Part shown: positions 2,765 to 48,513 of the stretch, piece by piece
How positions within the stretch are numbered: the stretch's first letter is position 1
How the letters are laid out: the number at the start of each line of letters is the position of its first letter
Assembly (NCBI GenBank): GCA_027075275.1
Contig: JALTBO010000130.1
Span: 1 to 48,644, forward strand
DNA length: 48,644 nucleotides
DNA from: Desulfurobacteriaceae bacterium
GTDB lineage: Bacteria > Aquificota > Aquificia > Desulfurobacteriales > Desulfurobacteriaceae
Reading direction: 5' to 3'
Position numbers and translations under genes: made by a program
Notes under the pieces: generated by a model
What the model was told of the DNA's origin: nothing
Database searches by the model: none
Seen by the model: only the letters and a program-made list of their open reading frames with translations

Positions 2765-3468
2765 TCCTTGTTTTTGATGTATCGGCCTGGGCTGCAGATG
2801 TGTGTATAGTTAACAGCTACCCGATACCACCTGCAAGAGAGGTGGAGTCAAGGGTGAGGGAGCTCCTTAAAGAGCACCACTACAACATTGTAAATTCAAA
2901 CTGTAACGTGAAAGTTTTGATAGGGACTCCTGCAGTTGTTAAAGAGCTTAACGGAAACGATAATTGTAAGCGGGTTTACACTTTCGTCCTCTTTCCGGAA
3001 AGGCTTGGCCTTCAAAACAGAGAAAACTTTTACGGTGTTAGAGTTTTCCCCTTACCTGAGAGAACTTACAGGAGATTTCTAAAAAGCCTCTGTCTGAAAA
3101 AGAAGAAAGTTGCTGTTCCCATCAGTTATGAAATGCTATCTATTGCCCGTATCTACCTGAAAAATCCCTACTTTGTTCCGATTCCTTTCAAGAACTCTCC
3201 TGTGGAAACGTTTAGGGAGCTCCTCAAATACAAATACGTTTATGTATTCCCTGATCCTAAACTTCTAAAGCTTGTTAACTTAGTAACTCTTGTTAACTTC
3301 TGCCACGATAACGGACTACTCGTATTTTCAGGGCTTACAGATCTTTCCAGGTTTAACCTTGACTACGTTGATAAACTTGATTTTGAAAAACTTGCAGAGG
3401 ATATCGTTTTTCTGGTGGAAAATAGCCCAAAAGAAAAGATACTGCCCTGTCCGTGTAGAGAGAGATGA
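2737..3468 (+). CDS. Periplasmic substrate-binding-like protein (ABC_sub_bind type)
   Basis: A 243-aa exported protein with a signal peptide (about 1-19, cleaved near SAWA). The mature part looks like a two-lobed alpha/beta periplasmic binding protein of the uncharacterised ABC substrate-binding family (PF04392/COG2984 style): short beta strands alternate with helices, and there is a conserved-looking VLIGTPAVVKEL segment. It is shorter than the usual 300 or so residues. It overlaps the receptor gene by 28 nt and the diguanylate cyclase by 4 nt (ATGA). No ABC permease or ATPase is nearby, so it may sense a ligand for the cyclase instead of feeding a transporter. Family assignment is moderate; the role is inference. 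Confidence 0.6.
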   Translation: MVRVAILILILVFDVSAWAADVCIVNSYPIPPAREVESRVRELLKEHHYNIVNSNCNVKVLIGTPAVVKELNGNDNCKRVYTFVLFPERLGLQNRENFYGVRVFPLPERTYRRFLKSLCLKKKKVAVPISYEMLSIARIYLKNPYFVPIPFKNSPVETFRELLKYKYVYVFPDPKLLKLVNLVTLVNFCHDNGLLVFSGLTDLSRFNLDYVDKLDFEKLAEDIVFLVENSPKEKILPCPCRER

Positions 3469-4679
3469 AAAGTTTTAGAAGAATACTTTTTCTGCAACAT
3501 GCTATATTGATATTAGGAATGTTTCTTTTTATAGTTCTTTCATCTATTTTTTCATCTAAACTATCACTTGAATATGAAAATAAATATGTAAAGCAGATCT
3601 CATCTATACTTGCTGAAAACTTGAAATTGATCACAGAAATCTACCCTAACAGATATCTGATTGAAGAAAGTATGAGAAGGGCTGTTAAGGATATTCCATC
3701 TCTAAACGGTATGTGTCTTTCTCTTGGATTAGAGAAATACTGCTATCCAGAAAAGTTAAACTTAAAGTATTCCTGTTCAGGTAATGAAATCTTACATAAT
3801 GAAAATGAAATTGTAGTTTGCTTTCCAGTTTATGAAGAGTATGCGTCACAATTCCTTGAAAAGAAGAAAGAGGGTTACTTTCTGGCTGTTTTTAACAGAA
3901 ATTACGTTGAACAGGTGAGGAACTACTGGTTCCTTGATTCTCTACTTATTTCTGTATTTTTCATTGCATTTGCGTCTCTTATTATTACCTCTATCTGGAT
4001 AGATATAAGCGTTGACTTTAATAAACTTAAAAAGTTCATTGATGATTTAAAAAAGCCTGATAGAGCTTTCATCCCTTTAGAGAAGCAGATAGAGAACTTT
4101 AAAATTGAAGAGTTCAAGAATGTAGCTCAACTTATAGTAAAACTGGCTAAGGAAGTCTCCCATCTTAACGAATATATAAAAGAACTTGCAATAACAGATC
4201 CTCTTACAGGACTTTACAACAGGAACTATCTCAATATTGTTCTTCAAAAGAATTTTATTCCCTTTTGGAAAAGAGAAAAATTTCCTTTGACTGTTGCTCT
4301 CTTAGATATTGATAACTTTAAATCACTAAACGATATTTACGGCCACCAGAAAGGTGATGAAGTTCTGAGAAAATTGGGTCAAATAATAAGAAATTCTATC
4401 AGAGAGAGCGATATACCAATAAGATTTGGCGGAGAAGAAATACTCATAATTTTTCCTTCTTCAAAGAAAGAAGAGGCTGTAAAAGCTGTGAAAAGGATAA
4501 GGGAAAATTTAGTTAAAGAGAACTTTGGAATAGGAAGACCTGTAACTTTCAGTTCAGGTCTGGCAGACTTTCCAGATGATATTACTGTTCCTGGAGAGCT
4601 GGAAAAACTGATAAAACTTGCTGATGAGAGACTTTACATAGCAAAGAACCGGGGAAAGAATAGAGATATTCTGGATTAA
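3465..4679 (+). CDS. Membrane-bound diguanylate cyclase with periplasmic sensor region
   Basis: A 404-aa enzyme that would make cyclic di-GMP from two GTP. A transmembrane helix at about 6-28 and another at about 157-180 bracket a periplasmic region of about 130 residues. A helical linker leads into a GGDEF domain (about 240-400) starting at the typical DPLTGLYNR. The active-site loop reads GGEEI (322-326), a catalytically acceptable variant. The inhibitory I-site RxxD is kept as RESD (313-316), exactly five residues upstream, so product feedback is expected. It is translationally coupled to the binding-protein gene, suggesting that periplasmic ligand occupancy sets the c-di-GMP level. The stretch is more AT-rich than its neighbours. 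Confidence 0.92.
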   Translation: MKSFRRILFLQHAILILGMFLFIVLSSIFSSKLSLEYENKYVKQISSILAENLKLITEIYPNRYLIEESMRRAVKDIPSLNGMCLSLGLEKYCYPEKLNLKYSCSGNEILHNENEIVVCFPVYEEYASQFLEKKKEGYFLAVFNRNYVEQVRNYWFLDSLLISVFFIAFASLIITSIWIDISVDFNKLKKFIDDLKKPDRAFIPLEKQIENFKIEEFKNVAQLIVKLAKEVSHLNEYIKELAITDPLTGLYNRNYLNIVLQKNFIPFWKREKFPLTVALLDIDNFKSLNDIYGHQKGDEVLRKLGQIIRNSIRESDIPIRFGGEEILIIFPSSKKEEAVKAVKRIRENLVKENFGIGRPVTFSSGLADFPDDITVPGELEKLIKLADERLYIAKNRGKNRDILD

Positions 4680-4697
4680 AGGGGCTCTAAGGCCCCT
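4680..4697. terminator. Bidirectional hairpin terminator between convergent genes
   Basis: A 6-bp stem (AGGGGC with GCCCCT) around a 6-nt loop sits directly after the diguanylate cyclase stop and before the stop of the convergent small gene. T-rich sequence follows on both strands: GTTCTTACTT on plus and TTTAATCC on minus. Confidence 0.65.
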
Positions 4698-4701
4698 GTT
4701 C

Positions 4702-5031
4702 TTACTTAATTATCTCGTCTTTAACATCTTCATACGTTTTGTACTCCTCATTTTGGAGTATTGAGTCTATAAATTTATCTATATCATCTCTATCAAGGAA
4801 AGTTCCAGTTAGGAGTCTGCCTGTATATTTGTCGTTTTTGATTTCCCAGAACATATAAAAATCTGGATATTTCTCTTTTATCTGTCGGTAAGCAACTCCG
4901 TACTTACTGGGTTTGTGTGGGTTCTGTTCAAGAAAGAAGTGGTTGGGAGCAACTACAATTCTCCAGAGCTCAACTCCCGTTTTTGTAACCACTTTTTGAA
5001 CTCTTAATTCGTGGCTCTCTTTTACTCTCAT
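4702..5031 (-). CDS. Conserved-looking hypothetical protein, 109 aa
   Basis: No family recognised. It is a small soluble alpha/beta protein with no signal peptide or membrane segment, charged and rich in Lys and Glu. The start is well supported: AGGAGGG lies a few bases before the ATG. The N-terminal half has alternating hydrophobic strand-like segments (LWRIVVAPNHFF), and the C-terminus is an acidic helix. It is convergent with the cyclase gene and has its own upstream gap of about 130 bp, so it is likely monocistronic. Function unknown. Confidence 0.7.
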   Translation of the reverse strand: MRVKESHELRVQKVVTKTGVELWRIVVAPNHFFLEQNPHKPSKYGVAYRQIKEKYPDFYMFWEIKNDKYTGRLLTGTFLDRDDIDKFIDSILQNEEYKTYEDVKDEIIK

Positions 5032-5131
5032 CTCTCCCTCCTTTTGTAAAGTTTAACACTATGGAAAAATTTAAACGGGATTTTTTAGTTTTCAAGGAAT
5101 TAAGGGAAGAGTTTAGAGTTCATAAGGAAAA

Positions 5132-6287: not shown

Positions 6288-9200
6288 CTACTCTTTTTCC
6301 CAGTTTCGTTTCTCCAGCATGTAATATAGTACCGGAATAACTCCGAGTGTTAACGTGGTTGATGCAAAAACGCCAAAAAGGATTGATATGGCTAAACCTT
6401 GGAATATGGGGTCTAACAGGATAACTGCAGAACCTACCATTGCAGCAGCAGCGGTTAGAACAATTGGCCTTAGTCTGACTGCTCCTGCCTCTATTATAGA
6501 GTCTTTGAGGGGAGCTCCTTCCCTCTTTCTCATCAGAATAAAGTCAACAAGAATGATAGAATTCCTTACTACTATACCCGCAAGGGCAATGAATCCAATC
6601 ATGGACGTTGCCGTAAAGTAGGCAGTCTTCCCAATAATTTTGCTCATTACCCAGTGACCGGGAATGATTCCTATCATTGTAAGTGGAATCGGTGCCATGA
6701 TTATCATTGGAATGACGAAAGATTGGAACTGACCGACAATCAGCAGGTAAATAAGGATAAGGGCAACTATAAAGGCGGCGCCCATATCCCTGAAGGTTTC
6801 ATACGTTATCTGCCACTCACCGTCCCACTTCATCACCGGTTTAAAGTCTGTTTGAGGAATGGAAGGTGGAATAAAGCTGTACTTGAGCTTGTATCCGTCT
6901 GGGAGCGGATGTTTCTTCAGGTAGTCGTTTATAGCAAGTATCGGGTATATAGGTGCCTCATACTTTCCAGCCACATTTCCTATTACGTAGGAAACAGGGT
7001 GGAGGTTCTTGTGGTAAATGGTTTTATCAGCAAGGGCTTTCTTTATCTTCACAAGTTCCCTCAGAGGGATTAGTTTTCCTTGGCTGTTCATTACAGTAAG
7101 GTCTAATATTTTGTTAATGTCATCCCTCTGGGTTCTTGGAAGCCTTACAAATATGGATACAGGGTCAGAGTCGTAGAGGGTATGGGCAACGGACACTGTT
7201 GCGCCGTGGAGAGCAATTCTTACAGTCTGGGCAATCTGAGCCTCTGTAACTCCAGATTCCCTTGCCTTTTTCCTGTTGACTACAACTTCATACTTGTAGT
7301 GGTCTGCGTCTACCAGCGTGTCTACGTCAACTACACCGGGAGTTTTTTTGAAGATCTCCTCAACCTCTTTGGCAATTCTCCGCCTTACTTTATCGTCCTT
7401 TCCGTATATCTCTGCAACTAAGGTTGCAAGAACAGGAGGGCCTGGTGGAACTTCAACTATTTTTACGTTTGCTTTAGGATTAACTGCCCTTGCTACTGCT
7501 TCTATTTTAGGCCTTTCCTCTTTTGCTATATCGTGGGACTGCCTTTTTCTCTTATGTTTGTCTATCAGGTTTATTCTTATGTCTGCTACGTTTCCGCCTT
7601 TTCTTAGATAGTAGTGTCTTACGAGGCCGTTGAAGTCAAACGGAGAGGCTGTTCCTATGTAAGCTTCGTAGTCTGTAACTTCCGGTATTGTCTGAATATA
7701 GTTGGTTATGGCCTTTACAACCCGGGCGGTTTCTTCTAAAGAAGTTCCCTCGGGCATGTCTACAACAACCTGAAACTCACTTTTGTTGTCAAATGGCAGG
7801 AGTTTTACAACTACTGTTTTTGTGAAGAAAAGGGCTACAGAACCGACCATTAGAAGGAGAATAGTTCCTAAAAATGCCCACCTTTTAAATGTGGAGTCAA
7901 GTAAGGGCCTGATAAGTTTGTTGTAGATCTTGTAAGTTCTGGTTTCCTCTAAAACAACTTTCTTTTCCTCTTTCTCAGCCTCTTTTCTAAGCAGGTAGTA
8001 TGCCGCCCATGGAGAGATGATAAAGGCCACTAACAGAGAGAAGAACATTGCAATTGATGAGTTAACAGGAATTGGACGCATATAGGGACCCATAAGGCCT
8101 CTAACGAAGGCCATGGGAAGGAGTGCGGCTATAACTGTAAAGGTTGCCAGAATTGTCGGGTTACCAACCTCTGCAACGGCGTAGATGGCTGCTTGAAGAG
8201 GAGGCATCTCTTTCAGTTTAAGGTGTCTGTGGATGTTCTCAACAACGACTATGGCGTCGTCAACTAAGAGACCTAAGGTGAAGATGAGGGCAAAGAGAGT
8301 AACCCTGTTGAGGGTGTAACCTGTAAGCAGGTCTACAAAGAGTGTTAGTGCAAGGGTTGTTGGAATGGCCAGTGAAACGACTAAAGCCTCTCTGACTCCA
8401 AGGGTTAAGCCGATGAATACAACAACGGCAAAGATAGCAACTCCAAGGTGGAACATAAGTTCGTCAAACTTGTCTTCTGCGGTTTTTCCGTAGTTTCTGG
8501 TTACGGTTACGTGGACGTCTTTTGGGAGCATGTGGGGTTCTATCTCTTTTAGCTTTTCAAGGATCTGGTGGGCTACCGTTACAGCGTTCGTTCCTTTTTT
8601 CTTTGCTATCGCTATTGTTACGGCAGGGAACTGGTTCCCGTGTTTTTCTATGAACTCTTTGCTTACTCCCTTTTCCTCTGAATGGGGGCCGAAACCTATG
8701 TAAACGTAGTGTTCAGGGTCTATTGGAGCGTCTGTAATTTCAGCTACGTTTTTCAGGTAGATGGGTTTTCCTCTGTAAACGCCTACAACTATGTTTTTGA
8801 GGTCGTCTATTGTTTTTATAAATTCTCCCGCTTCAACCGGGAACTCTGTGTTGTTCTCCGTTATCGTTCCTGCATTGATTTTTGCGTTGGCCGATTTTAT
8901 GGCCTGGGCTATCTGGAGTAGGGAAAGATGGTAGTTTTTCAGTTTGTCCCTGTCAACTATTACTTTAAACCGCCTTGTGTCTCCGCCTATTATCCAGGTT
9001 TTTGAGACGTTGTCTACCTGTTTAAGCTGGAGGCAGAGCTCCTTGGCTATTTTTCTCAGTTCGTAAGGGGTTTTGTCCTCGCTCCACACTGTAAGGGTGA
9101 CTATAGGAACGTCGTTTATGTCTTTAGGTTTGACTAACGGCTGGAGAGCTCCCGGCGGCAGTTTGTCCATGTTTGACATCAGTTTGTTGTAGAGCTTGAC

Positions 9201-9539
9201 CAGTGAGTCTTCCATGTCCTGGCCCACTTTGAAGCGGGCGATGATGAGGGACATTCCCGGCTTAGTGACGGAGTAGACGTAGTCTATTCCCTTTATCTCC
9301 CAGATGAGCTTTTCAAACCGGGTTGTTACCTTCCTCTCTACCTCTTTGGCGGGAGCTCCCGGGTAGGGAATAAATATGTCAACCATTGGAACAACAATCT
9401 GGGGATCTTCCTCTTTTGGGGTGAAAATGGCAGCCGCCACACCTATGAGTAGTGAGGCTATGAGGAGCAGTGGAGTTATTTTAGACGTTATGAATCTTTT
9501 GGCTATGTTTCCAGCTATTCCAAGGTTGATGTTCTTCAT
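6288..9539 (-). CDS. RND-family efflux transporter permease
   Basis: A 1083-aa inner-membrane proton-driven pump with the AcrB/CzcA fold. There is one N-terminal transmembrane helix (about 20-40), a large periplasmic porter domain, helices 2-6 (about 350-520), helix 7 near 555, a second periplasmic domain, and helices 8-12 at the C-terminus. The proton-relay pair is intact in helix 4 (Asp427-Asp428 in LLVDDAIVVVEN), the pattern of drug/solvent (HAE) pumps more than of metal pumps. The partner adaptor lies 2 bp upstream in the same operon. No TolC-like outer-membrane channel is present in the window, so one must come from elsewhere. Substrate unknown. Confidence 0.93.
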   Translation of the reverse strand: MKNINLGIAGNIAKRFITSKITPLLLIASLLIGVAAAIFTPKEEDPQIVVPMVDIFIPYPGAPAKEVERKVTTRFEKLIWEIKGIDYVYSVTKPGMSLIIARFKVGQDMEDSLVKLYNKLMSNMDKLPPGALQPLVKPKDINDVPIVTLTVWSEDKTPYELRKIAKELCLQLKQVDNVSKTWIIGGDTRRFKVIVDRDKLKNYHLSLLQIAQAIKSANAKINAGTITENNTEFPVEAGEFIKTIDDLKNIVVGVYRGKPIYLKNVAEITDAPIDPEHYVYIGFGPHSEEKGVSKEFIEKHGNQFPAVTIAIAKKKGTNAVTVAHQILEKLKEIEPHMLPKDVHVTVTRNYGKTAEDKFDELMFHLGVAIFAVVVFIGLTLGVREALVVSLAIPTTLALTLFVDLLTGYTLNRVTLFALIFTLGLLVDDAIVVVENIHRHLKLKEMPPLQAAIYAVAEVGNPTILATFTVIAALLPMAFVRGLMGPYMRPIPVNSSIAMFFSLLVAFIISPWAAYYLLRKEAEKEEKKVVLEETRTYKIYNKLIRPLLDSTFKRWAFLGTILLLMVGSVALFFTKTVVVKLLPFDNKSEFQVVVDMPEGTSLEETARVVKAITNYIQTIPEVTDYEAYIGTASPFDFNGLVRHYYLRKGGNVADIRINLIDKHKRKRQSHDIAKEERPKIEAVARAVNPKANVKIVEVPPGPPVLATLVAEIYGKDDKVRRRIAKEVEEIFKKTPGVVDVDTLVDADHYKYEVVVNRKKARESGVTEAQIAQTVRIALHGATVSVAHTLYDSDPVSIFVRLPRTQRDDINKILDLTVMNSQGKLIPLRELVKIKKALADKTIYHKNLHPVSYVIGNVAGKYEAPIYPILAINDYLKKHPLPDGYKLKYSFIPPSIPQTDFKPVMKWDGEWQITYETFRDMGAAFIVALILIYLLIVGQFQSFVIPMIIMAPIPLTMIGIIPGHWVMSKIIGKTAYFTATSMIGFIALAGIVVRNSIILVDFILMRKREGAPLKDSIIEAGAVRLRPIVLTAAAAMVGSAVILLDPIFQGLAISILFGVFASTTLTLGVIPVLYYMLEKRNWEKE

Positions 9540-9541: not shown

Positions 9542-10711
9542 TTACCCCTCTACTCTTGCTCCATCTACAAGCTCATCAACTTTTGTAACTGCAACTTTCT
9601 CTCCCGGATGGAGTCCGGAAAGGACTATAACCATGTTGCCCACCTCTTCCCCGGTCTTTACAATCCTCAGATGGGCAGTGCCGTCCTTAACAACGAAAAC
9701 GTACTCAACTGCTCCCACCCTGTAGATGGCAGATTTAGGAACTGCAACGGCTTCTGCCTTAAGTGACGGTATCTCAACAACTGCATAGGTTCCAGGAATT
9801 GCGTTCAGTCCTTTTACCAGAACCTTAATTCCGAACTTATGGGTTACAGGGTCGGAGCTCCTATCAACCTCAACAACTTCTCCTGTATACTCCTTTTCCT
9901 GAACTTTTACCTTTACTCTCGTTCCCACATTTATTTTTCCTGCATAGGCGTCATCAATGAATGCTCTTACCTTAAGAGGAAACGATCCTAACTTTAAAAT
10001 GGGAGTTTGTGGAGAAACTAAATTTCCCTTATCCACTAACTTTTGAAGGACAACTCCGTCTACAGGGGATTTAAGTTCTGTGTAGGAAAGGTAAGCTTCT
10101 GCCTTTTTGAGGGATGCCTCTACTTGCTGTTTCTTGGCCAGAAGGACTTTTTTCTTCTCTAAAATTTGGGCTTCTTTAGCTTTTACAGCCTCAAGACTGG
10201 CTTTTGCCCCTTTGTACTGGGCTTCAACTTCGTCAAACTTCTGCTTTGACACAGCATCGGCTTTAAGTAAATTTTTAAACCTTGTGTAGGTTTTCTCTGC
10301 AAGCTGGTAGTTAGCTTCTGCTGCCTGTTTCCTTGCTTCAACTTCCTGTAGAGCTTTATCAAGCTCTTTTAAAGCTGCTGTTATCTCTTTGAGTCCTGCT
10401 TTTGCTCTTTCAACGTCGGGTTTTATGTCTGAACTGTCAATTAAACCTAAAACTTCCCCTTTTCTAACCCTGTCTCCAGCGTCTACGTTGACCTTAATCA
10501 GGTACCCTACAACCTTAGGAGACAGGAAGATTTCTTTGTCGGGGATTACAGTTCCAGAGAACGTGTCGCTTCTGGTAAAAGAGATAACCTGGGCAGGTTC
10601 TACTTTAACACCTGTAACGCTTTTTACTTTTATAGGTTCAGCCTTCTCGGTAGTTCCGCAGGAAGCTGTGATAAGCATGAGCGTTAGAGCTAATGCAGCC
10701 CTTTTTACCAT
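9542..10711 (-). CDS. RND efflux periplasmic adaptor (membrane fusion) lipoprotein
   Basis: A 389-aa HlyD/AcrA-type adaptor that bridges the RND permease to an outer-membrane channel. The N-terminus is a lipoprotein signal with lipobox ITASC, so Cys18 should be acylated. The order is a first lipoyl half-motif (VDAGDRVRKGEVLGLID), a long alpha-hairpin (about 95-205), the second lipoyl half (SPVDGVVLQKLVDKGN), and a beta-barrel with a membrane-proximal domain. It is the first gene of the pump operon, with a recognisable promoter upstream. Confidence 0.92.
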   Translation of the reverse strand: MVKRAALALTLMLITASCGTTEKAEPIKVKSVTGVKVEPAQVISFTRSDTFSGTVIPDKEIFLSPKVVGYLIKVNVDAGDRVRKGEVLGLIDSSDIKPDVERAKAGLKEITAALKELDKALQEVEARKQAAEANYQLAEKTYTRFKNLLKADAVSKQKFDEVEAQYKGAKASLEAVKAKEAQILEKKKVLLAKKQQVEASLKKAEAYLSYTELKSPVDGVVLQKLVDKGNLVSPQTPILKLGSFPLKVRAFIDDAYAGKINVGTRVKVKVQEKEYTGEVVEVDRSSDPVTHKFGIKVLVKGLNAIPGTYAVVEIPSLKAEAVAVPKSAIYRVGAVEYVFVVKDGTAHLRIVKTGEEVGNMVIVLSGLHPGEKVAVTKVDELVDGARVEG

Positions 10712-11451: not shown

Positions 11452-12836
11452 TTTGTTCCTCCCACAGTTATTCTGGGAATTCTTATGGTCGGCAGGCCGT
11501 CTGATACTGGAACACCCTGGCCGTCTTTTCCACAGGTTCCTATAGAAAAGCCTATGTCATTTCCAACAGCGTCTATCTCCTGTAGAACTTTTGGACCGTT
11601 CCCTATGAGTGAAACACCCCTTATGGGTTCTGTAACTTCTCCGTTTTCAATCAGGTAGCCTTCTGAAACCTCAAATATAAAATCTCCGTTTACAGTGTTT
11701 ACCTGACCTCCCCCCATCTTTACCACTAAGATTCCCTCTTTTGTGTCTGCAATTATCTCTTTGGGATCTGTTTCTCCGGGAGCTATGTAGGTATTTGTCA
11801 TTCTGGGAATGGGAACGTGTTTGTAGGACTGCCTCCTCCCGTTACCAGTTGGGAGTCCGTTACCGTTTTTCATCGCCTCGGTTAGGTCGTACATGTAGCT
11901 TTTCAGAATTCCTCTTTCTATAAGAACGTTTTTTCCTGTAGGGGTTCCTTCGTCGTCGTAACCGGAGCTCCCGTACATTCCCTTCATGTAGCCGTCGTCA
12001 ATAACCGTAATAAGTTCTGATGCAACTTTTTCTCCGATTTTTCCAGAGTAGACGGAGAGTCCCTGATTTGCAAGGTCTGCCTCAAGGCCGTGTCCGACAG
12101 CTTCATGAATCATGGTTCCGCCTGCTTCAGAGCTTATTACCACTGTGAACGTTCCTGCAGGCGCCGGTCTGGCCTTCAGCATCTTCAAGGCTCTTTCTGC
12201 TGCTTTAGAGGCTACATCCTCAGGGGATATTTTCTTAAAGAGTGAGTAGTCTCCTAAGTGGCCTATCGGCTCGTAACCGGTCTGGAGTTCTACTCCGTCT
12301 GAAGCTACAACAAGGGTGTAGAAAACTACTCTCGGCCTTAAGTCTTCAACGATTTTTCCGTCTGTATTGACAATACAGACCTCCTGTAGCTGGTCTCTTA
12401 AAACTACTGTTACCTGTTTTATTCTGTCTCCGTAGCTTCTTGCTTTATCGTTTGCCCTTTTGAGGAGCTCCACTTTCTCCTCAATAGAAACGCTCAAGTC
12501 GTACCCTTCCACTATGTTCTCGTAGCGGAGTTCCCTTTCTGTGAAATCTAAAGTAACCTCTCTTTCCAGTTCTGCGGCCGCCGAGAGTTTTTCAATTACC
12601 TCTCTGATAGAAGCTTCGGTAAGTCTGTTTGTGAACCCATAGAAGGTTTTGAAGTTTTTCACAAACCTGATGCCGACCCCTACTTCTATACCGCAGTTGA
12701 GGTTTTCTACTCTGTTGTCCTCACACTTTCCGCTGAAGGTGATGCGCCTTTCAAAGAAAAGGTCTCCGAAGTCCGCACCTCTCTTTTTCAGCTCCCTTGC
12801 TCCAAAAACTCCTAACTCTTTGAAGTCCTGAACCAT
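11448..12836 (-). CDS. tldD: Metalloprotease TldD
   Basis: A 462-aa subunit of the TldD/TldE zinc protease, which trims unfolded peptides and matures some modified peptides. The metal site is visible as HEAVGH (His244, Glu245, His249), an HExxxH motif. The family's C-terminal half follows, including GNGRRQSYKHVPIPRMTNT and the GGGQV segment. The non-metal partner TldE/PmbA is encoded 18 kb away at 30056-31384. It lies directly after nadE with no gap and overlaps the amidotransferase gene by 4 nt. Confidence 0.94.
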   Translation of the reverse strand: MVQDFKELGVFGARELKKRGADFGDLFFERRITFSGKCEDNRVENLNCGIEVGVGIRFVKNFKTFYGFTNRLTEASIREVIEKLSAAAELEREVTLDFTERELRYENIVEGYDLSVSIEEKVELLKRANDKARSYGDRIKQVTVVLRDQLQEVCIVNTDGKIVEDLRPRVVFYTLVVASDGVELQTGYEPIGHLGDYSLFKKISPEDVASKAAERALKMLKARPAPAGTFTVVISSEAGGTMIHEAVGHGLEADLANQGLSVYSGKIGEKVASELITVIDDGYMKGMYGSSGYDDEGTPTGKNVLIERGILKSYMYDLTEAMKNGNGLPTGNGRRQSYKHVPIPRMTNTYIAPGETDPKEIIADTKEGILVVKMGGGQVNTVNGDFIFEVSEGYLIENGEVTEPIRGVSLIGNGPKVLQEIDAVGNDIGFSIGTCGKDGQGVPVSDGLPTIRIPRITVGGTK

Positions 12837-15713: not shown

Positions 15714-15949
15714 TGCTTTCTCACAAAGAGAAGTATTAGAAACGAAAGGCCTGTAAGTAGCAGACTTATCAGTATGCTGGTTCCTAAGGGGAAGTAGAAG
15801 ACGAAGTTGTCCCGTTTTACGTAGATGTCTCCCGGAAGCCTTCCTATGGGGAGGGAGCTCCCCGCCTTTGAGAGAAGTATTATAAGAAGGCCAAAAACTA
15901 TCAGAACTACTCCGAAATAGATAAGCATCTTACCTACTTCATCAAGCAT
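15710..15949 (-). CDS. DUF2905 family small membrane protein
   Basis: A 79-aa integral membrane protein with two helices (about 8-27 and 50-75) separated by the family's signature loop LPIGRLPGDIYVKRDNF. Function unknown in all members. I chose the ATG at 15949 because AGGAGG lies 5-6 bases upstream and the start shares one base with the dgkA stop (TGATG). A longer start at 15994 would add 15 residues inside dgkA without a ribosome site. Confidence 0.88.
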   Translation of the reverse strand: MLDEVGKMLIYFGVVLIVFGLLIILLSKAGSSLPIGRLPGDIYVKRDNFVFYFPLGTSILISLLLTGLSFLILLFVRKQ

Positions 15950-39031: not shown

Positions 39032-39907
39032 CTACTTAAGCGAGTTGATGGAGTGGCAAACTCTACAAAGTTTGCCTTTTTTAAGGTCTTTACTCATAAG
39101 CTCTACACCTTTTGTATTGAGCTCAAACCTGTTGAGTTCAAGGTTCAGCTTCCTGAGTTTGTATTCAAGGTCGGCCTTTTCAATGTTAGCCCACTCTTTA
39201 TCTTCAGGTGGCGCCGGTATAGCTATCTGTGGGTGTGGGTTGTGGCAGGTTATACACTCAATATGGCCGTTAACCAGTATAACTTTCGGTTTTCTGCTTT
39301 TTAGAACTTTTTCATCAATTTTCGGCTTTAACTGTTTCATTGAGGTAATCTCTACAATTTCTGCTTTTCCTTTTACTAATTCTTTGACTTTTTCCGGTTT
39401 TGCAAAGAGGTGCTCGGGAGCTCCCACGTGCGGCGTTTCAGTATGGCAACCAACACAGGCCTTGTAGGCTTCAAGCTTTGCTCCAAAACCGTGGCAGTAG
39501 ATACACGCCTTTTTCTTCTCGTTCCAGGGTAATTTGGAAGCTATCGTTTTATGGGGGTTAAACTTTCTGTAGCACTCAGGGTTGTGGCACTGGAAACAGA
39601 AGTCGTACCTGTGTTTAATAGGCCTGTTTGTTCTCAGGAAATCCTTAGTTGAGTTTGTCATGTCGTGGCAGGTTGTACAGGTTAACTTTCCGTCCCAGGT
39701 TCTCGGGAAGTTAGCAGGAACTTTTATACACTTTGTATCCCTTATCTTTACGTCTACAGGGTGTAATACCGGGCAACCTTCTGTATGACACTTCAAACAG
39801 AACTTTGTGTCATACCCGGTATATCCTTTACCCCCACACTCTTTAGACAGAGCGTTCCCGCTGAAAACTATACCTACGATTGCCAGTCCTATCAGTCCCT
39901 TCCTCAT
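39032..39907 (-). CDS. Hepta-haem periplasmic cytochrome c
   Basis: A 291-aa exported cytochrome with seven CxxCH motifs (CLKCH, CTTCH, CFQCH, CIYCH, CVGCH, CITCH, CRVCH). I chose the ATG at 39907, which gives MRKGLIGLAIVGIVFSG, a proper signal peptide, and shares a base with the upstream stop (TGATG). A longer frame from 39961 would bury the signal. A haem-free helical segment rich in Lys and Glu (about 170-270) separates the fifth to seventh sites. Probably a periplasmic carrier between the inner-membrane complex and the porin module. Confidence 0.88.
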   Translation of the reverse strand: MRKGLIGLAIVGIVFSGNALSKECGGKGYTGYDTKFCLKCHTEGCPVLHPVDVKIRDTKCIKVPANFPRTWDGKLTCTTCHDMTNSTKDFLRTNRPIKHRYDFCFQCHNPECYRKFNPHKTIASKLPWNEKKKACIYCHGFGAKLEAYKACVGCHTETPHVGAPEHLFAKPEKVKELVKGKAEIVEITSMKQLKPKIDEKVLKSRKPKVILVNGHIECITCHNPHPQIAIPAPPEDKEWANIEKADLEYKLRKLNLELNRFELNTKGVELMSKDLKKGKLCRVCHSINSLK

Positions 39908-40509: not shown

Positions 40510-41771
40510 TTCCTATCCTCGGCCTTTTTTTCTCCCGTTCCGCCCCAGAAAAGGAGGTTGTATCTGAAAATGAATCTGAGGTCGTGGTCAAAGTCTTCGT
40601 TGTTTCTGTAGTCAACTCCGAGCTCTAAGTTGGAGAAATCTGATGTCTGGTAGGTTCCCCTGAGGTAGTACGCCGTTGCCCACTGTCTTCCGTAGGTTAT
40701 CTTGTCATAACGGGCAATGTCTGCTGTTCCGTTAAGTGTTAGCTTTTCACAGATATATTTGGTGAATCCAAGTTCAACTCCCCTCATTATCCCAATCCAG
40801 CTGTTCTGGTAGAGGAGAGCTCCGTAAGCCCTTAAGCCGTTCTCAAACCAGGTATCCCTTACTGCACCAACCTTTGCGAGGTATCCGTTGTCCTTTCCGT
40901 TCCTCTGAACGTCTGTCAGTGTAACGTTTCCAAAGAGCTGCCAGTTCTTGGTTATATCGTAGTAGGCGCTCTGTGTGAAGCGGAGCTCCCTTCCGTTCGG
41001 TGAAAAGAGTGAAAATATCCTGTCTTCCCTTATGCCACCGTCGTAGGTGTAGGATGGGTCATAGTACTCAACTTCTGTGTTAAACCTGAGCCTATTTGTG
41101 GGAAAGTAGTTGAAACCAAAGCTTGCGTTGAGGAGCTCCCCGTGGGCAGCATCAACTTCCAAACGGCTGTACTGGGCAAGTTTTTCTGTTAAATACCTGT
41201 AGTTTCCGAAAACGAAAGAGCTTTTCTTAACTTTACCGTCGTCCCTTAAGTGTTCAAAACCAAAATAGTAGCCTTTGTAGTCAAATTTGAACCCGAAAAG
41301 GAGGTCGTCTCCAGAGTGGGTGTTGGGCTCAAAGAACCTGGGCTTTCCGAGGTAAACTGTGTATGTAAGACCGTTTTTAAGGCTTACATCTAACTTTACT
41401 GCATCGGCAACGTAGGTTTCAAAACCTTCTGAGATGAACTGCCTACCAACAGAGAGGCGGGAGCTCCTGTCTTTGTTCAGAGGGGTTTCAACGTAGAGCT
41501 GGTAGAGGTCTAAATTCCAGTCTGTTCCGTATCCTAAATCCTTCCAGAGCTTACCGTAGAAGTGGAGCTCTGAGTTTCCCTTCAGGTCCCGTATATCCAA
41601 CTTCAGGTAGTTATCAAAAGGGATGGAGTCTTCATCGTAGACGTCCTGTCTGAACTCTATCTGGGTTTTCAGCTCTCCCTCAAACCCGGGAACATTGACA
41701 GCTGCCAGAGACTGAGCGGTAAGAAGACCTATCCCCAGTCCCGCCGTTATTGCTAACCTCTCTATCCCCAC
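40506..41771 (-). CDS. Outer-membrane beta-barrel porin of the cytochrome operon
   Basis: A 421-aa exported protein, first gene of the electron-transfer operon. The signal peptide is about 1-23 (SLAA). The remainder is strand after strand of alternating hydrophobic and polar residues with many Tyr and Phe, about 16-20 strands, and ends in a strand LRFIFRYNLLFW shortly before a charged tail. No known substrate motif. By position it would be the sheath through which a haem protein contacts the outside, as in porin-cytochrome complexes. The start is GTG (41771) with GAGAGGG upstream. Confidence 0.82.
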   Translation of the reverse strand: MGIERLAITAGLGIGLLTAQSLAAVNVPGFEGELKTQIEFRQDVYDEDSIPFDNYLKLDIRDLKGNSELHFYGKLWKDLGYGTDWNLDLYQLYVETPLNKDRSSRLSVGRQFISEGFETYVADAVKLDVSLKNGLTYTVYLGKPRFFEPNTHSGDDLLFGFKFDYKGYYFGFEHLRDDGKVKKSSFVFGNYRYLTEKLAQYSRLEVDAAHGELLNASFGFNYFPTNRLRFNTEVEYYDPSYTYDGGIREDRIFSLFSPNGRELRFTQSAYYDITKNWQLFGNVTLTDVQRNGKDNGYLAKVGAVRDTWFENGLRAYGALLYQNSWIGIMRGVELGFTKYICEKLTLNGTADIARYDKITYGRQWATAYYLRGTYQTSDFSNLELGVDYRNNEDFDHDLRFIFRYNLLFWGGTGEKKAEDRK

Positions 41772-41893: not shown

Positions 41894-43105
41894 TTACAAA
41901 AACTGGTTTAACAGAAGAACCTTTACTCTTTCTTTCACCTCAACAGGTCCTTTTCCTTCTGGAACAACGGCAAGACCGTCTGATTCTACAAAGCTCCTGA
42001 AAATAGAGGTTTGCTGACTTCCTCCGCTTCTTACCTTCAGACAGCCGTTTTCCTCCCTTACATTAACCCTTATAAAATCAACCCTGTGAGGTCTTGACTT
42101 TAACCTTTCTTCTGCAACTGCTTCAGTGTATCTGTTCTCATAATTTTCAATCCCGGCCATTTTTCTTACAGCTGGTATAAGGAACTCTAAAGCGTTAACT
42201 GCTGCCGCAGTTGGGTAGCCGGGAAGTCCAAAAAAGAGTTTGTTTTCTCGTTTTCCGAAGACCAACGGCCTTCCCGGCCTTATGTTCGTCTGCTTGAAAA
42301 AGATCTCCACTCCAGCCCTGTGGACAACCTCTTTTACGAAATCGTACTTGCCCTTTGAAACTCCACCGGTTGTTATCAGAATGTCAACGTAGTTCAGCCC
42401 ATCTTCAACTGCCCTGAGGAGAGCTTCAGGTTCATCTTCAGCCCTTCCAAGCCTTACCGCTTCACCTCCGGCCTTTTCTACAAGGCTTTTAAGCAGGTAG
42501 TAGTTTGAGTTGTAGGCATACCCTCTTTTAAAACTCTCCCAGGGTTCAAGAATCTCATTTCCCGTTGTTAGAATGCCAACTTTCGGTTTTCTGAAGACTT
42601 TAACGGCGTAAATGCCAACGTAGGCAAGGAGAGAAACTTTTAAGGAGCCAAGGATTTCTCCCTTTCCAATCAGAACCTCTCCCTTTCTTATCTCGCTCCC
42701 CTTGAAGTTTATAAGGGCTCCCGGCTCAACGGGAAAATCAACGATTACCCTGTTTCCTTCCACCTTTACATCTTCAACCCTTACGGCTGCGTCTGCTCCC
42801 TCAGGTATCTCTCCGCCGGTCATTACGAAAACAGCTTCTCCCTCTTTAACCTGTTTTCTCTCCGTGTCTCCGGCTGCTGTCTCTCCAACGATTTTCAGCT
42901 CTGCAGGGAGTTTTTTAAGGGAGGAGCTCCTGAATGCAAATCCGTCTATTGCCGATTTGTTTACGTCCGGAACGTCTATCGGCGAAACCACGTTTTCTGA
43001 CAGAACCCTCCCTTCGGCTTTTTCCAGAACTACCAGCTCAGTCTCTTTAACCGGTTCTGTGTTCTCTGAGATAATCCTCTTCGCCTCTTCCCACTTCACC
43101 TTCAT
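41894..43105 (-). CDS. moeA: Molybdopterin molybdotransferase MoeA
   Basis: A 403-aa enzyme that inserts molybdate into adenylyl-molybdopterin to finish the cofactor. Family blocks are present: DVNKSAIDGFAFR near the N-terminus, GAVFVMTGGEIPEGADAAVRVED-like VMTGGEIPEGADA, TTGGVSKGKYDFVKE in the MoCF domain, and GLPGYPTAA. I chose the ATG at 43105, giving MKVKWEEA with GGGAGA upstream and a TAATG overlap with the preceding gene, over a GTG at 43159. Last gene of the molybdenum operon. Confidence 0.93.
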   Translation of the reverse strand: MKVKWEEAKRIISENTEPVKETELVVLEKAEGRVLSENVVSPIDVPDVNKSAIDGFAFRSSSLKKLPAELKIVGETAAGDTERKQVKEGEAVFVMTGGEIPEGADAAVRVEDVKVEGNRVIVDFPVEPGALINFKGSEIRKGEVLIGKGEILGSLKVSLLAYVGIYAVKVFRKPKVGILTTGNEILEPWESFKRGYAYNSNYYLLKSLVEKAGGEAVRLGRAEDEPEALLRAVEDGLNYVDILITTGGVSKGKYDFVKEVVHRAGVEIFFKQTNIRPGRPLVFGKRENKLFFGLPGYPTAAAVNALEFLIPAVRKMAGIENYENRYTEAVAEERLKSRPHRVDFIRVNVREENGCLKVRSGGSQQTSIFRSFVESDGLAVVPEGKGPVEVKERVKVLLLNQFL

Positions 43106-44127: not shown

Positions 44128-45173
44128 TCTTCCTCCTCAACTATGCATATCTGTTCTGCGGAAAGGTGAAGGGTTGTTTTTTTTCCTTCTTCCAGTATGT
44201 AGTTTGGAGTAAGACTTAACGGAAGGTGGAGCTCCACCTCCTCTCCCTCCATTTCAACCTGAAGGAAGAGTAAATTTCCCATTTTCTCAACTCTCTTGAC
44301 CAGAACTTCAACTCTGCTGAACTCTGTTGCCGGGGAGAGGGCAGCTGACATGGGAAGTATGGAAACGGTTACTTCCTGACCGGCTTTCAGGGGAGTTCTC
44401 CTTTTAAGTTTCAGTCTCAACTTGCCTTTAACTTCAACTACTGTAAATTCTCTATCTGTTTTAACAACCTTCCCTTTCAGGAAGTTTTTGTGACCTAAGA
44501 GTTTTGCTATTTTAACCGTTTTAGGAGAGAAGAAGACCTCTTCCGGGTTTCCTTCCTGAACGTTTTTTCCATTCTCAAGTATTACCACCTTTTTTGCCAA
44601 TCTTAAAACCTCATCAAAGTCGTGGGTAACCAGGATAACTCTCTGGCTGAACCGCCGGGTTATTGTGAGGAGCTCCCTGTAAAGGTTCTCCTTTAAAGAC
44701 CGGTGGAGAGCGGAAAAAGGTTCATCCAATAGGAGTATCTCCGGTTTTCTCATGATAGCTCTTGCAAGGGCTACTCTCTGTTTCTGGCCTCCGGAGATCT
44801 GGGCGGGCAGTTTATTCAGGATGTCGCCGATTTCAAGGAGCTCTACCACTTCTTTGAACAGGTTTTTATCCTTTGAAGAGAAACAGATGTTCTCCTTTAC
44901 AGTCATGTGGGGAAAGAGAGCATAGTCCTGAAACAGGTATCCTACGTTCCTTTTCTGAGGGGGGACATTGATTTTCCCTTCTGAACTGAAAAGGATCCTG
45001 CCGTTTACCTCAATTTTCCCTCTTTCAGGCTTCTGCAGGCCGGCTATCATCTGGAGAGTTACAGTTTTTCCCGAGCCAGATGGAGCAAATAGGGCTGTTA
45101 TTTCTGCATCTGAGCAGAAAGAGACGCTGTAGTTAAAGTTTTTAAGCCTTTTTTCTGCCTGAAATCTTAACAT
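44124..45173 (-). CDS. modC: Molybdate ABC transporter ATPase
   Basis: A 349-aa ATPase that powers molybdate (or tungstate) import. Walker A is APSGSGKT (about 31-38), the signature is [14 protein letters not shown], Walker B LLLDEP, and the switch His is in VTHDFDE. A C-terminal regulatory TOBE-like region (about 235-345) is the Mo-binding type found in ModC. It overlaps modD by 7 nt and the next gene by 4 nt. A 16-bp perfect palindrome around GGAGCTCC lies in its 3' part (44224-44239). Confidence 0.9.
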
Positions 45174-46009
45174 GGGACAATTTCTACCTTTACATCAATT
45201 GGTTTACTGAAGTAAACTGAGGTAAGAACCAGAAAATCAGCACCGCTCTTTGCAAATTCTTCAACGTTCTCTTCTCTAATTCCTCCGGCTGCTGCTATTT
45301 TAACCTGAGGATTGTGGCTGTCTCTGAACCTGACAACCTCTTTTATCTCTTGAATAGAGAATTTATCCAGCTGAACGATGTCTGCTCCTTTAACTATGCA
45401 TTCAAGGGCTTCCTCTACCGTTTCTGCTTCAACTATTATCTTCTTCTCAGGAGCTTTTTTCTTGAGGAGGGGGAGCTCCTTTAAAACGTTTTTAAGCCCA
45501 CCCTTTAGAACGGCGTGGTTCCTGAAAATTAAAACAGTTTCAGAAAGGCCCAAACGGTGGGGGAGAGCTCCCCCGCACAGAATTCCTTTAATACAGATCT
45601 TCTTTGCTAATGGAAATGTTTTCCGTGTTGTAAATACCTCTATCTGAGGGTTAATGCTCTTTGCTTTTTCAATCAGCCTTCTGGTTCCCGTTGCGATTCC
45701 ACTGCAGTACTCAAGAAGGTTCTGGCATACCTTCCAGACTTTGTGAACGTTGTCTCCCCTTCCCTTTCCCGATATGATTACTTCTCCCTTTTCAACTGCG
45801 GTTCCTGACTCTACTACTTTTTCAACCTTAACGTTAAACTTCTCAAATATCCTTGCACACTCTTCCGTTCCGCAGACTACGGAGCTCTCTCTTACAGAGT
45901 AGATAATTTCAGCTTCAGTATTTTTCAGATTTAAAAGGTGAGAAGTTAAGTCAAAGTAGGGAACGTCTTCTTCTATAAGTCTTTCTATTTCAGCTTCCGT
46001 TAACCTCAT
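45167..46009 (-). CDS. modD: ModD, quinolinate phosphoribosyltransferase-like protein
   Basis: A 280-aa homologue of nicotinate-nucleotide pyrophosphorylase (NadC) of the ModD branch, found with molybdate transport genes. NadC-type blocks are present: [52 protein letters not shown] and [10 protein letters not shown]. The link to molybdenum use rests on gene context; its reaction is not established. It overlaps modB by 20 nt and modC by 7 nt. Confidence 0.9.
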
Positions 46010-46679
46010 TGTCCCTCCTTTCCGTTAGCTTGTTTACTGTGAAGATGATTATCAGTGAGATAACAGCGATAACAGCCGTCAATGTGTTTGCTCTTTCAAA
46101 GTTTCCGTCTGAAACGGCGCTGTATATCTCAATGGGTATGGTGTTTGTTTTGAAAGGAATGTTCCCTGCAAGCATGAGGGTTGCTCCGAATTCGCCGATA
46201 GCCCTCGCAAACGAGAGAACAGTTCCGGCTATTATTCCTCTCTTTGCAATGGGAAGGACAACTCTTAGGAAAGTTTCAACCTCTCCTTTCCCGAGGGTGT
46301 AGGCGGCGAAGATGAAGTTTCGGTTTACGGCTTCTATGGAGCTCCTTGCTGTTTTTACAAAGATCGGAAAGGCTGCAACAGACGAGGCAACAACGGCTCC
46401 ATACCAGGTAAAGATAATTCCCGTTTTGAAAAGCCTGTAAAGAACCTCTCCGATGGGGCCGTTTTTACCGAGGAGAAGAAGGAGAAGGTAACCTGTAACT
46501 GTTGGAGGGAAGACCAGAGGTAGTGTTATGAGTGTATCTATCAGGTTCTTTAAGGGAAGCTCTTTTGTTGCAAGCAAGTAAGATAACGGAAGCCCTATGA
46601 AGAAAACGGTAATCGTTGAAACTGTAGCAACTTTTAGCGAAAGCTCTATTGAAAAGAGCGCTTCACTGTCAAGAACCAT
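45990..46679 (-). CDS. modB: Molybdate ABC transporter permease
   Basis: A 229-aa inner-membrane permease with about five helices. The permease/ATPase coupling loop [20 protein letters not shown] and [20 protein letters not shown] are ModB hallmarks. I chose the ATG at 46679 ([17 protein letters not shown]), which overlaps the modA stop by 11 nt and has AAAGG upstream; a frame from 46745 would prepend 22 residues lying inside modA. Confidence 0.92.
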
Positions 46680-47403
46680 TTTCAACCTTTCTAAATCCAA
46701 ATTTGTTAAAGGTGGAGCTCCCTGTTTGTAACAGGGCTTTCTCAAATTCCCTGCACTCCTTTAAATTCCCTCCCTTCACACAGCCTACGTAAAACCTGAT
46801 AGGAGTGTGAAGCCTGTCCGGAAAGATTTTTATGAGTTTTACCCTGTCTCTGAACTTGAAGTAGTCGGAATAGTAAACAATTCCAAGATCAGCGTTTCCC
46901 GTCATAACCCATACTGTTATCTGTCTGACGGTTGGAGCGTAAATAAGTCTATCTTTAACCTTCTCGTAAATTCCTAAGTTTTTTAGTGTTTCAACTGCGT
47001 ACTTTCCTACAGGAGCAAGTCTATCTCCTACAGCTATTCTTTTTGCGTCTGTCACTCTTTTAGCTTTTCCATCTCTTGGAGCTATTAAAACTAAAGAAGT
47101 TTCTGCAAAGGGTTTAACAGTTTTCCCGTTGAGGGCTCCCTTCTTTACTCCGTAGTCAATCCAGAACTTTGAGGCGGAGATGTAAACGTCTGAGGGAGCT
47201 CCCGCTACTATCTGGTTAATAAGTTTCCCTGAAGATGAGAAATTAAAGATAACCTTTTCTCCCGTCTCTTTCTGGAATTCCTTTCCTACCGTTTTAACGA
47301 GCTCTTTCGTTCCCAATGCTGCGGAGATGAGGAACTCCTTTCCGTATGTGGCTGATGAGAATAGCAGGAGAGCGAGTATTGTAAAATAGAGTCTTAGAAC
47401 CAT
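46669..47403 (-). CDS. modA: Molybdate-binding periplasmic protein
   Basis: A 244-aa substrate-binding protein for molybdate or tungstate. The signal peptide is about 1-21 (ATYG). The opening [24 protein letters not shown] and [16 protein letters not shown] are ModA landmarks supplying oxyanion-binding Ser and backbone contacts. It is the first gene of the operon. Its ribosome site GGAGGTG (47408-47414) is complementary to a CACCTCC segment in the upstream hairpin, so translation may be riboswitch-controlled. Confidence 0.93.
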
Positions 47404-47479: not shown

Positions 47480-47513
47480 AAGGGGGTCAGCCCGAGCCTG
47501 GACTGACCCCCTT
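47480..47513 (-). terminator. Strong hairpin, possible riboswitch-controlled terminator
   Basis: An 11-bp perfect stem (AAGGGGGTCAG with CTGACCCCCTT) and a 12-nt loop lie between the aptamer and modA. On the minus strand TGTAGTTTA follows, so the U-tract is poor. It may be a weak terminator, a pause site or a spacer helix. Confidence 0.5.
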
Positions 47514-47520
47514 AGCATCT

Positions 47521-47619: not shown

Positions 47620-47626
47620 GACTTCT

Positions 47627-47632
47627 ATTATA
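47627..47632 (-). promoter_or_regulatory. Extended -10 promoter of the molybdenum operon
   Basis: A perfect TATAAT preceded by TGG (TGn-TATAAT) lies 7 bases upstream of the riboswitch closing helix, so transcription would start almost exactly at the aptamer's 5' end. No good -35 is visible (GCAAAG-like), consistent with an extended -10 promoter. Confidence 0.72.
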
Positions 47633-47643
47633 CCAGATGAAAT

Positions 47644-47846
47644 CTAAAGCTTTGCCCTTTTAGAGAAGTTTAAAATTGTTAAACCCACAACTTCTCCTGT
47701 TTTAGTATCTACTTTTAGTATGGTTCCATTTCCTATATCAATACCTTCTGCAGGTTTGGGTTCACCAAACGATATGTAGAGAACGTCTGCTTCTTCGTCG
47801 TAGTGAATGTGAGATTCACTTTTTTGGGGAGTTTAAATCTTTTCAT
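47644..47846 (-). pseudogene. DUF2283 gene with a disrupted reading frame
   Basis: The minus-strand frame from about 47811 to the stop at 47644 encodes an unmistakable DUF2283 core: HYDEEADVLYISFGEP, then GIDIGNGTILKVDTKTGEV and GLTILNFSKRAKL. That frame has no ATG, GTG or TTG; it runs back to the stop of the O-methyltransferase gene. An ATG at 47846 opens MKRFKLPKK in a different frame and would join the core by a -1 shift at a run of six A (CCCAAAAAAG, about 47819-47828). One extra A would restore a 66-residue protein. It could be a decayed gene, a programmed or transcriptional slippage site, a non-canonical ATT start, or a homopolymer sequencing error. Confidence 0.75.
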
Positions 47847-48513
47847 AACTTAGTTCCTTTTGTTTCAAAAACAGCAGTCCGTCTCCAACGGGAATGAGGG
47901 TTGCCTCAAAGTTTGGGTAATTTTTGATGTCTTCTAAAAACCTCCTCAGCAGTTTGACTCCTCTTTCATACTTTTTGTCGTAATCTCTACCTGCTACGTA
48001 TCCTCTAAATAGAACGTTATCAAAAAGTGCAACTCCTCTTTCTTTAAGTAGAGGCTGAACTTTGTAGTTGAAAAACGGATATTCAGACTTAACAGAGTCA
48101 ACGAATATGAAGTCAAAGATTTCTTCTCTGGAAAGAAGCTCCCTTATATACTCCATCCCGTCTGATAGAACGGTTTTGATGGGAGCTCCCGCCCTCTCAA
48201 AAAACTCTTCTGCCTTTTTAAGCCTCTTCCTGTTTGAGTCAACTGTTGTTATTTCAGCTTCTCTATACCCATAGTAGATGTTCAGAGTGCTGTATCCTAC
48301 TCCTGTTCCTATTTCCAGCACTCTTTTGGGTTTCAGGATACTTACGATTAACCTCAGTAGGGCGGCTGATACTGGAAGAAGTATTGGAACCTTCTCCTTC
48401 TGCGAAAACTCCTCAATCTCCTTCAGTATTTTCTCTCTTTTGTTGTAGGTATTGCAGAAATCCTCAACTTCAGGTAGTAGAATTTCACTAAGGTTTTCCC
48501 ACCTTTTAAACAC
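47833..48513 (-). CDS. SAM-dependent O-methyltransferase
   Basis: A 226-aa class I methyltransferase of the catechol/caffeoyl-CoA O-methyltransferase group (PF01596-like). The SAM-binding motif I is VLEIGTGVGYSTL, motif II ITTVDSN, and DFIFVDSVKSEYPFF and LFDNVLFRGYVAG are the metal and substrate loops typical of the family. The substrate is unknown. It starts at GTG (48513) with GGAGG upstream, 21 bp from the divergent gene, and its end overlaps the disrupted DUF2283 gene. Confidence 0.9.
   Translation of the reverse strand: MFKRWENLSEILLPEVEDFCNTYNKREKILKEIEEFSQKEKVPILLPVSAALLRLIVSILKPKRVLEIGTGVGYSTLNIYYGYREAEITTVDSNRKRLKKAEEFFERAGAPIKTVLSDGMEYIRELLSREEIFDFIFVDSVKSEYPFFNYKVQPLLKERGVALFDNVLFRGYVAGRDYDKKYERGVKLLRRFLEDIKNYPNFEATLIPVGDGLLFLKQKELSYEKI

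Follow-up and report, generated by a model that had tools for sequence, protein, structure and literature searches.

A HIP1-like palindrome, GGAGCTCC, at nearly every permitted site in genomes of Desulfurobacteriaceae

Introduction

The closest described counterpart of the element studied here is HIP1 (GCGATCGC), a highly iterated palindrome (HIP) reportedly described from cyanobacteria by Robinson in 1995; to our knowledge, it has found no accepted explanation in thirty years. Here we analyze the octameric palindrome GGAGCTCC in a 48,644-nucleotide stretch of DNA (contig JALTBO010000130.1 of assembly GCA_027075275.1; the window), part of a metagenome-assembled genome (MAG) of the Desulfurobacteriaceae, phylum Aquificota, that comprises 1.48 Mb in 136 contigs. 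An initial annotation of the window had called this palindrome HIP1-like. The host genome (G000, the own genome) belongs to group g1, its TldD being 89–91% identical to that of congeners. Copies were counted over 61 genomes of the class, and codon-level tests were carried out on selected genomes.

Nearly all cyanobacterial HIPs are accompanied by a matching methyltransferase, and GmeC-directed mismatch repair has been proposed for them (Elhai 2015, PMC4390886). Like HIP1 and the alternate HIPs, GGAGCTCC is a GC-rich 8-mer palindrome that occurs about once per kb in unrelated genes and tops all octamers, and it shares with the cyanobacterial HIPs the deviations at its first and last positions, the patchy loss in relatives and the avoidance of its core by one lineage. 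HIP1 proper combines the sequence GCGATCGC, GATC and CGATCG methyltransferases and a cyanobacterial host; GGAGCTCC has another sequence, occurs in another phylum, in the Desulfurobacteriaceae, and is accompanied throughout by none of the five methyltransferase families searched. Unlike in the cyanobacterial HIPs, more than 90% of the opportunities for GGAGCTCC are filled, independently of neighboring copies, and unlike the alternate HIPs, which are sporadic, it is common to several genera. The literature that we searched contained no report of a GGAGCTCC repeat, only unrelated sequence strings.

Results

The window contains 42 exact copies of GGAGCTCC, spanning 2859 to 48189, compared with 0.74 expected for equal bases and 1.0, 1.6 and 3.2 under Markov models of order 1, 2 and 3, respectively. 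Synonymous-codon shuffling of the open reading frames (ORFs) in the window yielded 2.9 ± 1.7 copies (maximum of 10 in 500 shuffles), and every other 8-mer palindrome is present in at most 7 copies. The excess is thus unexplained by base, oligomer or codon composition. A reversed control, CCTCGAGG, occurs twice in the window, but it is biased low because TCGA itself is nearly absent from the genome, and we therefore relied on the Markov and codon nulls. Coding copies use all three codon phases, unevenly (25/9/7, n = 41), with 25 of the 41 in the phase that reads x-GAG-CTC-C. Nor is the enrichment local to the window: the whole genome carries 1,290 copies in 1.48 Mb (~0.9 per kb), and 290 kb of it (the window plus L161–L180) hold 262 copies vs. 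13.4 expected at order 2, the next palindromic octamer having 49. GGAGCTCC is by far the top palindromic octamer, at a density within the ~500–2500 per Mb of HIPs in the sense of Elhai 2015.

These results agree with what the initial annotation had claimed, namely 42 copies far above the equal-base expectation, in all three codon phases and beyond what protein conservation can explain. Its label “HIP1-like” is apt in form, density, codon-phase independence and the end-position bias of the deviations. The six GGGAGCTCCC extensions that it listed are present, but the full count is eight, with two more at 22239 and 26682.

The flanks of GAGCTC define the recognized unit. Relative to expectation in these 290 kb of the own genome, G..C flanks are enriched 19.6-fold, A..C and G..T 5.3-fold and A..T 1.5-fold, with the remaining combinations at ~1. 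The one-mismatch forms AGAGCTCC and GGAGCTCT, already suspected to be enriched, both stand at 5.3-fold. Variants of the core, on the other hand, range from 0.2- to 1.6-fold, the highest value being that of GGAACTCC; single-base deviations from GGAGCTCC are thus concentrated at its first and last positions. From this grading it follows that the unit is RGAGCTCY and not GGAGCTCC alone, so that the palindrome initially taken as the unit stands as its optimum but not as its full extent. Core variants so close to expectation would fit fixation biased toward the optimum better than a mutational cloud.

Amino-acid effects were taken out by conditioning on protein sequence, i.e. by comparing synonymous codings of fixed peptides. 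The tripeptide Gly-Ala-Pro is coded GGA-GCT-CC, which creates GGAGCTCC, in 38/40 cases in the own genome, 18/19 in its g1 congeners, 36/43 in G020 and 26/33 in G008, but in only 4/36 on the T. ammonificans chromosome and 0/13 in G006, G009 and G016 pooled. Use of GAG-CTC for Glu-Leu depends on the adjacent bases: 182/202 (90%) with G..C flanks, 64/86 with G..T, 23/42 with A..C and 18/41 with A..T, vs. 14/144 (~10%) with G..A or G..G. G006 uses GAG-CTC in 2/330 Glu-Leu contexts. The main limit on the motif is therefore where proteins permit GGAGCTCC, and nearly every synonymous opportunity is filled. Density is the same in intergenic and coding DNA (0.88 vs. 0.91 per kb), and strictly intergenic DNA of active genomes contains 26 copies vs. 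~1.8 expected, which rules out a translational effect.

Placement along the chromosome is random. Spacing is Poisson in 266 kb of the own genome (coefficient of variation 1.00, variance/mean 1.00) and in 340 kb of G020 (coefficient of variation 0.95), with none of the non-random placement along the replicon expected of a chromosome-organization signal. In three comparisons, Glu-Leu contexts less than 300 bp from another copy were used as often as those more than 600 bp away (80/98 vs. 92/106, 81/93 vs. 113/137 and 41/60 vs. 37/53), showing that site use is independent of distance to other copies. A function with diminishing returns, such as mismatch-repair coverage, uptake or segregation, would predict distance dependence.

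Individual sites are protected from synonymous change. Within the genus, G001 keeps 21/29 copies vs. 23% of matched 8-mers, and other members keep 12–14 of 24–33 vs. 18–19%. Where all overlapping residues are conserved between the own genome and G001, 20/23 sites are intact, compared with 29% of other GC-rich 8-mers, and third bases are retained at 0.80 inside copies vs. 0.54 for the same codons elsewhere. Gain/loss parsimony gave reduced losses (26 vs. 46.9). Between genera (~65% DNA identity), site retention drops near the control level and density is maintained, indicating that positions turn over while the motif persists. The genome-wide count, codon null, comparison with relatives and synonymous conservation that had been called for at the outset all came out in favor of the HIP1-like reading.

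The motif is active in all six g1 genomes, g4 (G008, G018 and G020), g6 (G010 and G015) and two g3 genomes, G017 and G007, which we take to be Desulfurobacterium thermolithotrophum from the deposited chromosome of 1,541,968 bp. It is inactive in g2 (G006), g5, g7, one g3 genome (G012) and G013, presumably T. ammonificans (1,682,965 bp). In the protein tree, g5 and g7 lie outside the active clade and G006, G012 and G013 are nested inside it, so the simplest history is one gain followed by three losses. A single low stretch in G008 had hinted at regional mosaicism, but this was not confirmed, the motif being active along its 982-kb contig.

GAGCTC, the core of the motif, is a SacI-type site. Unlike a SacI-type restriction target, which is avoided, it accumulates in active genomes (3.7-fold above expectation in the own genome), and avoidance is seen only in genomes without the motif. 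In G006, GAGCTC is at 0.15 of expectation, the strongest avoidance of all, and G006 is the only one of the 61 genomes with a SacI-like nuclease (PF09566; 21.1 bits vs. a cut-off of 19.3); none was found in active genomes. The nuclease gene is overlapped by that of a D12-class DNA methyltransferase (G006:C7, L136:1420–3448), and this predicted SacI-like restriction-modification pair would readily explain why the motif was purged. The g5 genomes (G009 and G014) also avoid GAGCTC (0.25 of expectation in G009), with no recognizable SacI-like nuclease; at locus L134, a 363-aa protein that falls into no known family adjoins a D12 methyltransferase. Shorter palindromes are depleted as well: in the 290 kb of the own genome TCGA and CTAG are at 0.02 of expectation and CGCG and GATC are strongly reduced, and relatives purge further 4-mers (GATC 0.00–0.04, GGCC 0.02, GTAC 0.05), which suggests very strong restriction pressure in Desulfurobacteriaceae. 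A coupling of the motif to TCGA avoidance was ruled out, as G009 avoids TCGA without having the motif, and G005 and G004 keep the motif with TCGA at 0.35–0.40.

The signature extends to resident phage DNA. A segment of the T. ammonificans chromosome (G013:C2, ~15.7–50.2 kb, L238–L240) contains 36 copies of GGAGCTCC in 34.5 kb vs. 1.8 expected, has no GATC or CTAG and has nearly no TCGA, compared with ~0.2 copies per kb and normal TCGA in the remaining chromosome. It encodes a terminase, tape measure protein, DDE transposase, AAA protein, GemA-like and CII-like proteins and a LexA-type repressor, a gene content that identifies a transposable, Mu-like prophage; no methyltransferase was recognized among its scanned proteins. 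A single close relative was found in the viral collection, a prophage of an isolate genome (L385, IMGVR_UViG_2890528774) with terminase and capsid 91% identical. It carries only 4 copies over 19.2 kb, and of the nine sites that can be aligned between the two prophages, one is shared. The signature thus covers resident phage DNA and tracks the host where the phage has lived, and we infer that the T. ammonificans prophage is a recent arrival from an active host. The two prophages form a natural comparison pair. When the viral collection was scanned for paired motifs, the four densest matches (loci of at least 3 kb) were GC-rich (0.58–0.72) with many TCGA sites, which made them uninformative.

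Five DNA-methyltransferase Pfam families were searched (PF00145, PF01555, PF02384, PF07669 and PF02086), and no DNA methyltransferase of these families is common to the active genomes. PF00145 (m5C) enzymes are absent throughout g1, and PF01555 enzymes vary between genomes, with none in G002 (1,309 copies, 99% complete), which shows a type I HsdM alone. PF02384, PF07669 and PF02086 do not fill this gap. Judging from sequence, the ~250-aa PF07669 matches look like tRNA methyltransferase and the 201–203-aa D12 matches look like RsmD. The PF01555 enzyme of the own genome (L027:1417–3160; G000:C98, ~11.9–13.7 kb) was rejected as the driver. The gene after it encodes a 305-aa protein whose sequence reads like that of a DpnII-like nuclease; the pair, present also in G001, G005 and G007, is a probable GATC restriction-modification system. 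Single-molecule real-time (SMRT) analysis of D. thermolithotrophum identified a type III CACC m4C system, DthLIII (PMC8259958), whose name implies two further systems, and our PF00145 and PF01555 searches found three candidate systems in G007. MutL (every genome of the family) and ComEC (all near-complete genomes) were rejected as discriminating factors, being present in active and inactive genomes alike.

Discussion

To account for these observations, a process must act per site, at the DNA level and on all cellular DNA, must recognize a palindrome and must be open to loss; sequence-specific biased repair or conversion fits these properties most simply. We propose that a putative lineage-specific DNA-binding or DNA-processing factor reads RGAGCTCY with GGAGCTCC as optimum, so that each allele creating or keeping a site would be favored at fixation, independently of other sites. 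The most likely route would be biased mismatch or recombination repair, i.e. sequence-specific gene conversion, in which a GGAGCTCC/GGAGTTCC or GGAGCTCC/GGAGCTCT mismatch would be resolved toward GGAGCTCC; weak additive selection for occupancy is a less likely route. Such a bias would be so strong that almost all synonymous opportunities are filled, and would act on the chromosome, intergenic DNA and resident phage; sites would decay on loss of the factor, and would be purged on acquisition of a GAGCTC restriction system. We assign a probability of about 0.5 to this reading, a site-by-site fixation bias set by a factor reading RGAGCTCY and working through biased repair or conversion. That a single protein is responsible, and that it acts by biased repair rather than selection, is what we infer from the pattern. 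Of the causes that the initial annotation had offered, a repair or mutation bias comes closest, in the form of a putative repair or fixation bias. More tentatively, and with distinctly less confidence, the system may be a methylation-independent, sequence-specific repair or conversion system that rewrites host and phage DNA toward one palindrome, with protein sequence as the sole brake; if true, this would be a hitherto undescribed kind of genomic drive, one that accounts for HIP1 too.

Several points weigh against a fixation bias set by such a factor. The factor itself was not found, and it could still be a methyltransferase outside the five families or be encoded by genes that the incomplete MAGs lack. 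Polarized gains (1 observed vs. 1.5 expected) are too few to show raised gain, under a parsimony that scores repeated gains as losses. In addition, additive selection would give nearly the same pattern.

Such selection, acting weakly per site on a functional binding site (for a nucleoid protein, a self-DNA mark or a recombination/repair signal), is the main rival, which we find rather unlikely but not far-fetched: it accounts for conserved sites, for a preference graded as binding energy would be, and for a saturated phage, as a self mark would predict. However, there is no diminishing return near another site, spacing is Poisson, and the motif is dispensable: T. ammonificans, G006 and G012 have lost it, and nothing obvious has taken its place. 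The same two spacing results leave the chromosome-organization signal of the initial annotation unsupported, insofar as it needs regular placement. Its other proposal, a methyltransferase target, is not supported in its simple form, for want of an enzyme of the five families common to motif genomes. An elaborated version, in which the core is marked by a methyltransferase and a GmeC-dependent repair ratchet raises GGAGCTCC to roughly one copy per kb, is improbable, although the core contains GC, the end positions deviate most, the density is right, MutL is present throughout the family and methyltransferases accompany nearly all cyanobacterial HIPs (PMC4390886). Against it stand G002 with its lone HsdM, the absence of PF00145 from g1, the failure of MutL to separate active from inactive genomes, and the lower use near existing sites that saturation at one per kb predicts and that is not observed.

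A DNA uptake signal, maintained by transformation that prefers motif-bearing DNA in a molecular drive like that of Neisseria or Haemophilus, is very improbable. The motif resembles the uptake sequences of Neisseriaceae and Pasteurellaceae in occurring about once per kb, genome-wide and inside genes, its sites are autonomous and conserved, and ComEC is present; but comEC is just as present where the motif is missing, even spacing is not seen, and GGAGCTCC is a perfect palindrome, whereas DNA uptake signals, whose orientation the uptake machinery recognizes, are not known to be palindromic. Like Chi-type signals, the motif is a short, over-represented, octamer-scale signal that could mark self DNA. 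Chi, however, is directional, which a palindrome cannot be, and Chi is not known to fill all the sites open to it. A by-product of codon or amino-acid preference, such as favored GAG-CTC pairs, would explain why the x-GAG-CTC-C phase predominates, but it is refuted by flank dependence, as GAG-CTC use falls from 90% to ~10% with a change in the following base alone; in addition, shuffling yields 3 copies vs. 42 observed, and all three phases and intergenic DNA carry the motif. Equally refuted is a library or assembly artefact. Most of the genomes are MAGs, and GGAGCTCC is also the sequence of a commercial SacI linker, but the motif replaces synonymous codons with no insertion, orthologous sites are common to independent assemblies, and closed genomes carry it.

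GGAGCTCC provides an independent, testable counterpart of HIP1 in another phylum, with features not combined in cyanobacteria: close sister species with the motif on and off, and near-complete filling of synonymous opportunities. Each state is represented by the closed genome of a cultured species, assigned by size, namely D. thermolithotrophum (on), for which a SMRT methylome exists, and T. ammonificans (off), and a phage brings the signature to a host in which the motif is off. Methylation-directed repair, selection and biased conversion as origins of such palindromes thereby become directly testable. In these genomes the motif further skews codon usage as well as the signals used in phylogenetics or binning, and it can mark the host of the phages that infect them.

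Features of the window

Table 1. Positions of the GGAGCTCC copies and their GGGAGCTCCC extensions in the window.
Feature	Position	Strand	Remark
GGAGCTCC copy	2859..2866	.	exact match
GGAGCTCC copy	3216..3223	.	exact match
GGAGCTCC copy	6511..6518	.	exact match
GGGAGCTCCC, with GGAGCTCC at 9352	9351..9360	.	exact match
GGAGCTCC copy	9854..9861	.	exact match
GGAGCTCC copy	11964..11971	.	exact match
GGAGCTCC copy	12464..12471	.	exact match
GGAGCTCC copy	13649..13656	.	exact match
GGAGCTCC copy	14086..14093	.	exact match
GGAGCTCC copy	15143..15150	.	exact match
GGAGCTCC copy	15584..15591	.	exact match
GGAGCTCC copy	15649..15656	.	exact match
GGGAGCTCCC, with GGAGCTCC at 15854	15853..15862	.	only window copy outside the ORFs used
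GGAGCTCC copy	17995..18002	.	exact match
GGAGCTCC copy	19110..19117	.	exact match
GGAGCTCC copy	19506..19513	.	exact match
GGAGCTCC copy	19767..19774	.	exact match
GGAGCTCC copy	20709..20716	.	exact match
GGAGCTCC copy	21040..21047	.	exact match
GGAGCTCC copy	21712..21719	.	exact match
GGGAGCTCCC, with GGAGCTCC at 22240	22239..22248	.	extension absent from initial list
GGAGCTCC copy	22597..22604	.	exact match
GGAGCTCC copy	22690..22697	.	exact match
GGAGCTCC copy	22894..22901	.	exact match
GGAGCTCC copy	22966..22973	.	exact match
GGGAGCTCCC, with GGAGCTCC at 26683	26682..26691	.	extension absent from initial list
GGAGCTCC copy	27321..27328	.	exact match
GGAGCTCC copy	29219..29226	.	exact match
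GGGAGCTCCC, with GGAGCTCC at 31675	31674..31683	.	exact match
GGAGCTCC copy	31943..31950	.	exact match
GGGAGCTCCC, with GGAGCTCC at 39417	39416..39425	.	exact match
GGAGCTCC copy	40982..40989	.	exact match
GGAGCTCC copy	41132..41139	.	exact match
GGAGCTCC copy	41460..41467	.	exact match
GGAGCTCC copy	42923..42930	.	exact match
GGAGCTCC copy	44228..44235	.	exact match
GGAGCTCC copy	44669..44676	.	exact match
GGAGCTCC copy	45472..45479	.	exact match
GGAGCTCC copy	46338..46345	.	exact match
GGAGCTCC copy	46714..46721	.	exact match
GGGAGCTCCC, with GGAGCTCC at 47195	47194..47203	.	exact match
GGGAGCTCCC, with GGAGCTCC at 48182	48181..48190	.	exact match

Two genes of the window may be mentioned in their own right: a break-repair gene at 20909–23599 encoding a Rad50-type SMC ATPase (the best model being a Sulfolobales Rad50), and a gene at 32785–35463 for a multihaem protein of 892 aa with doubled CXXCH domains, a relative of DmsE-type decahaem cytochromes.

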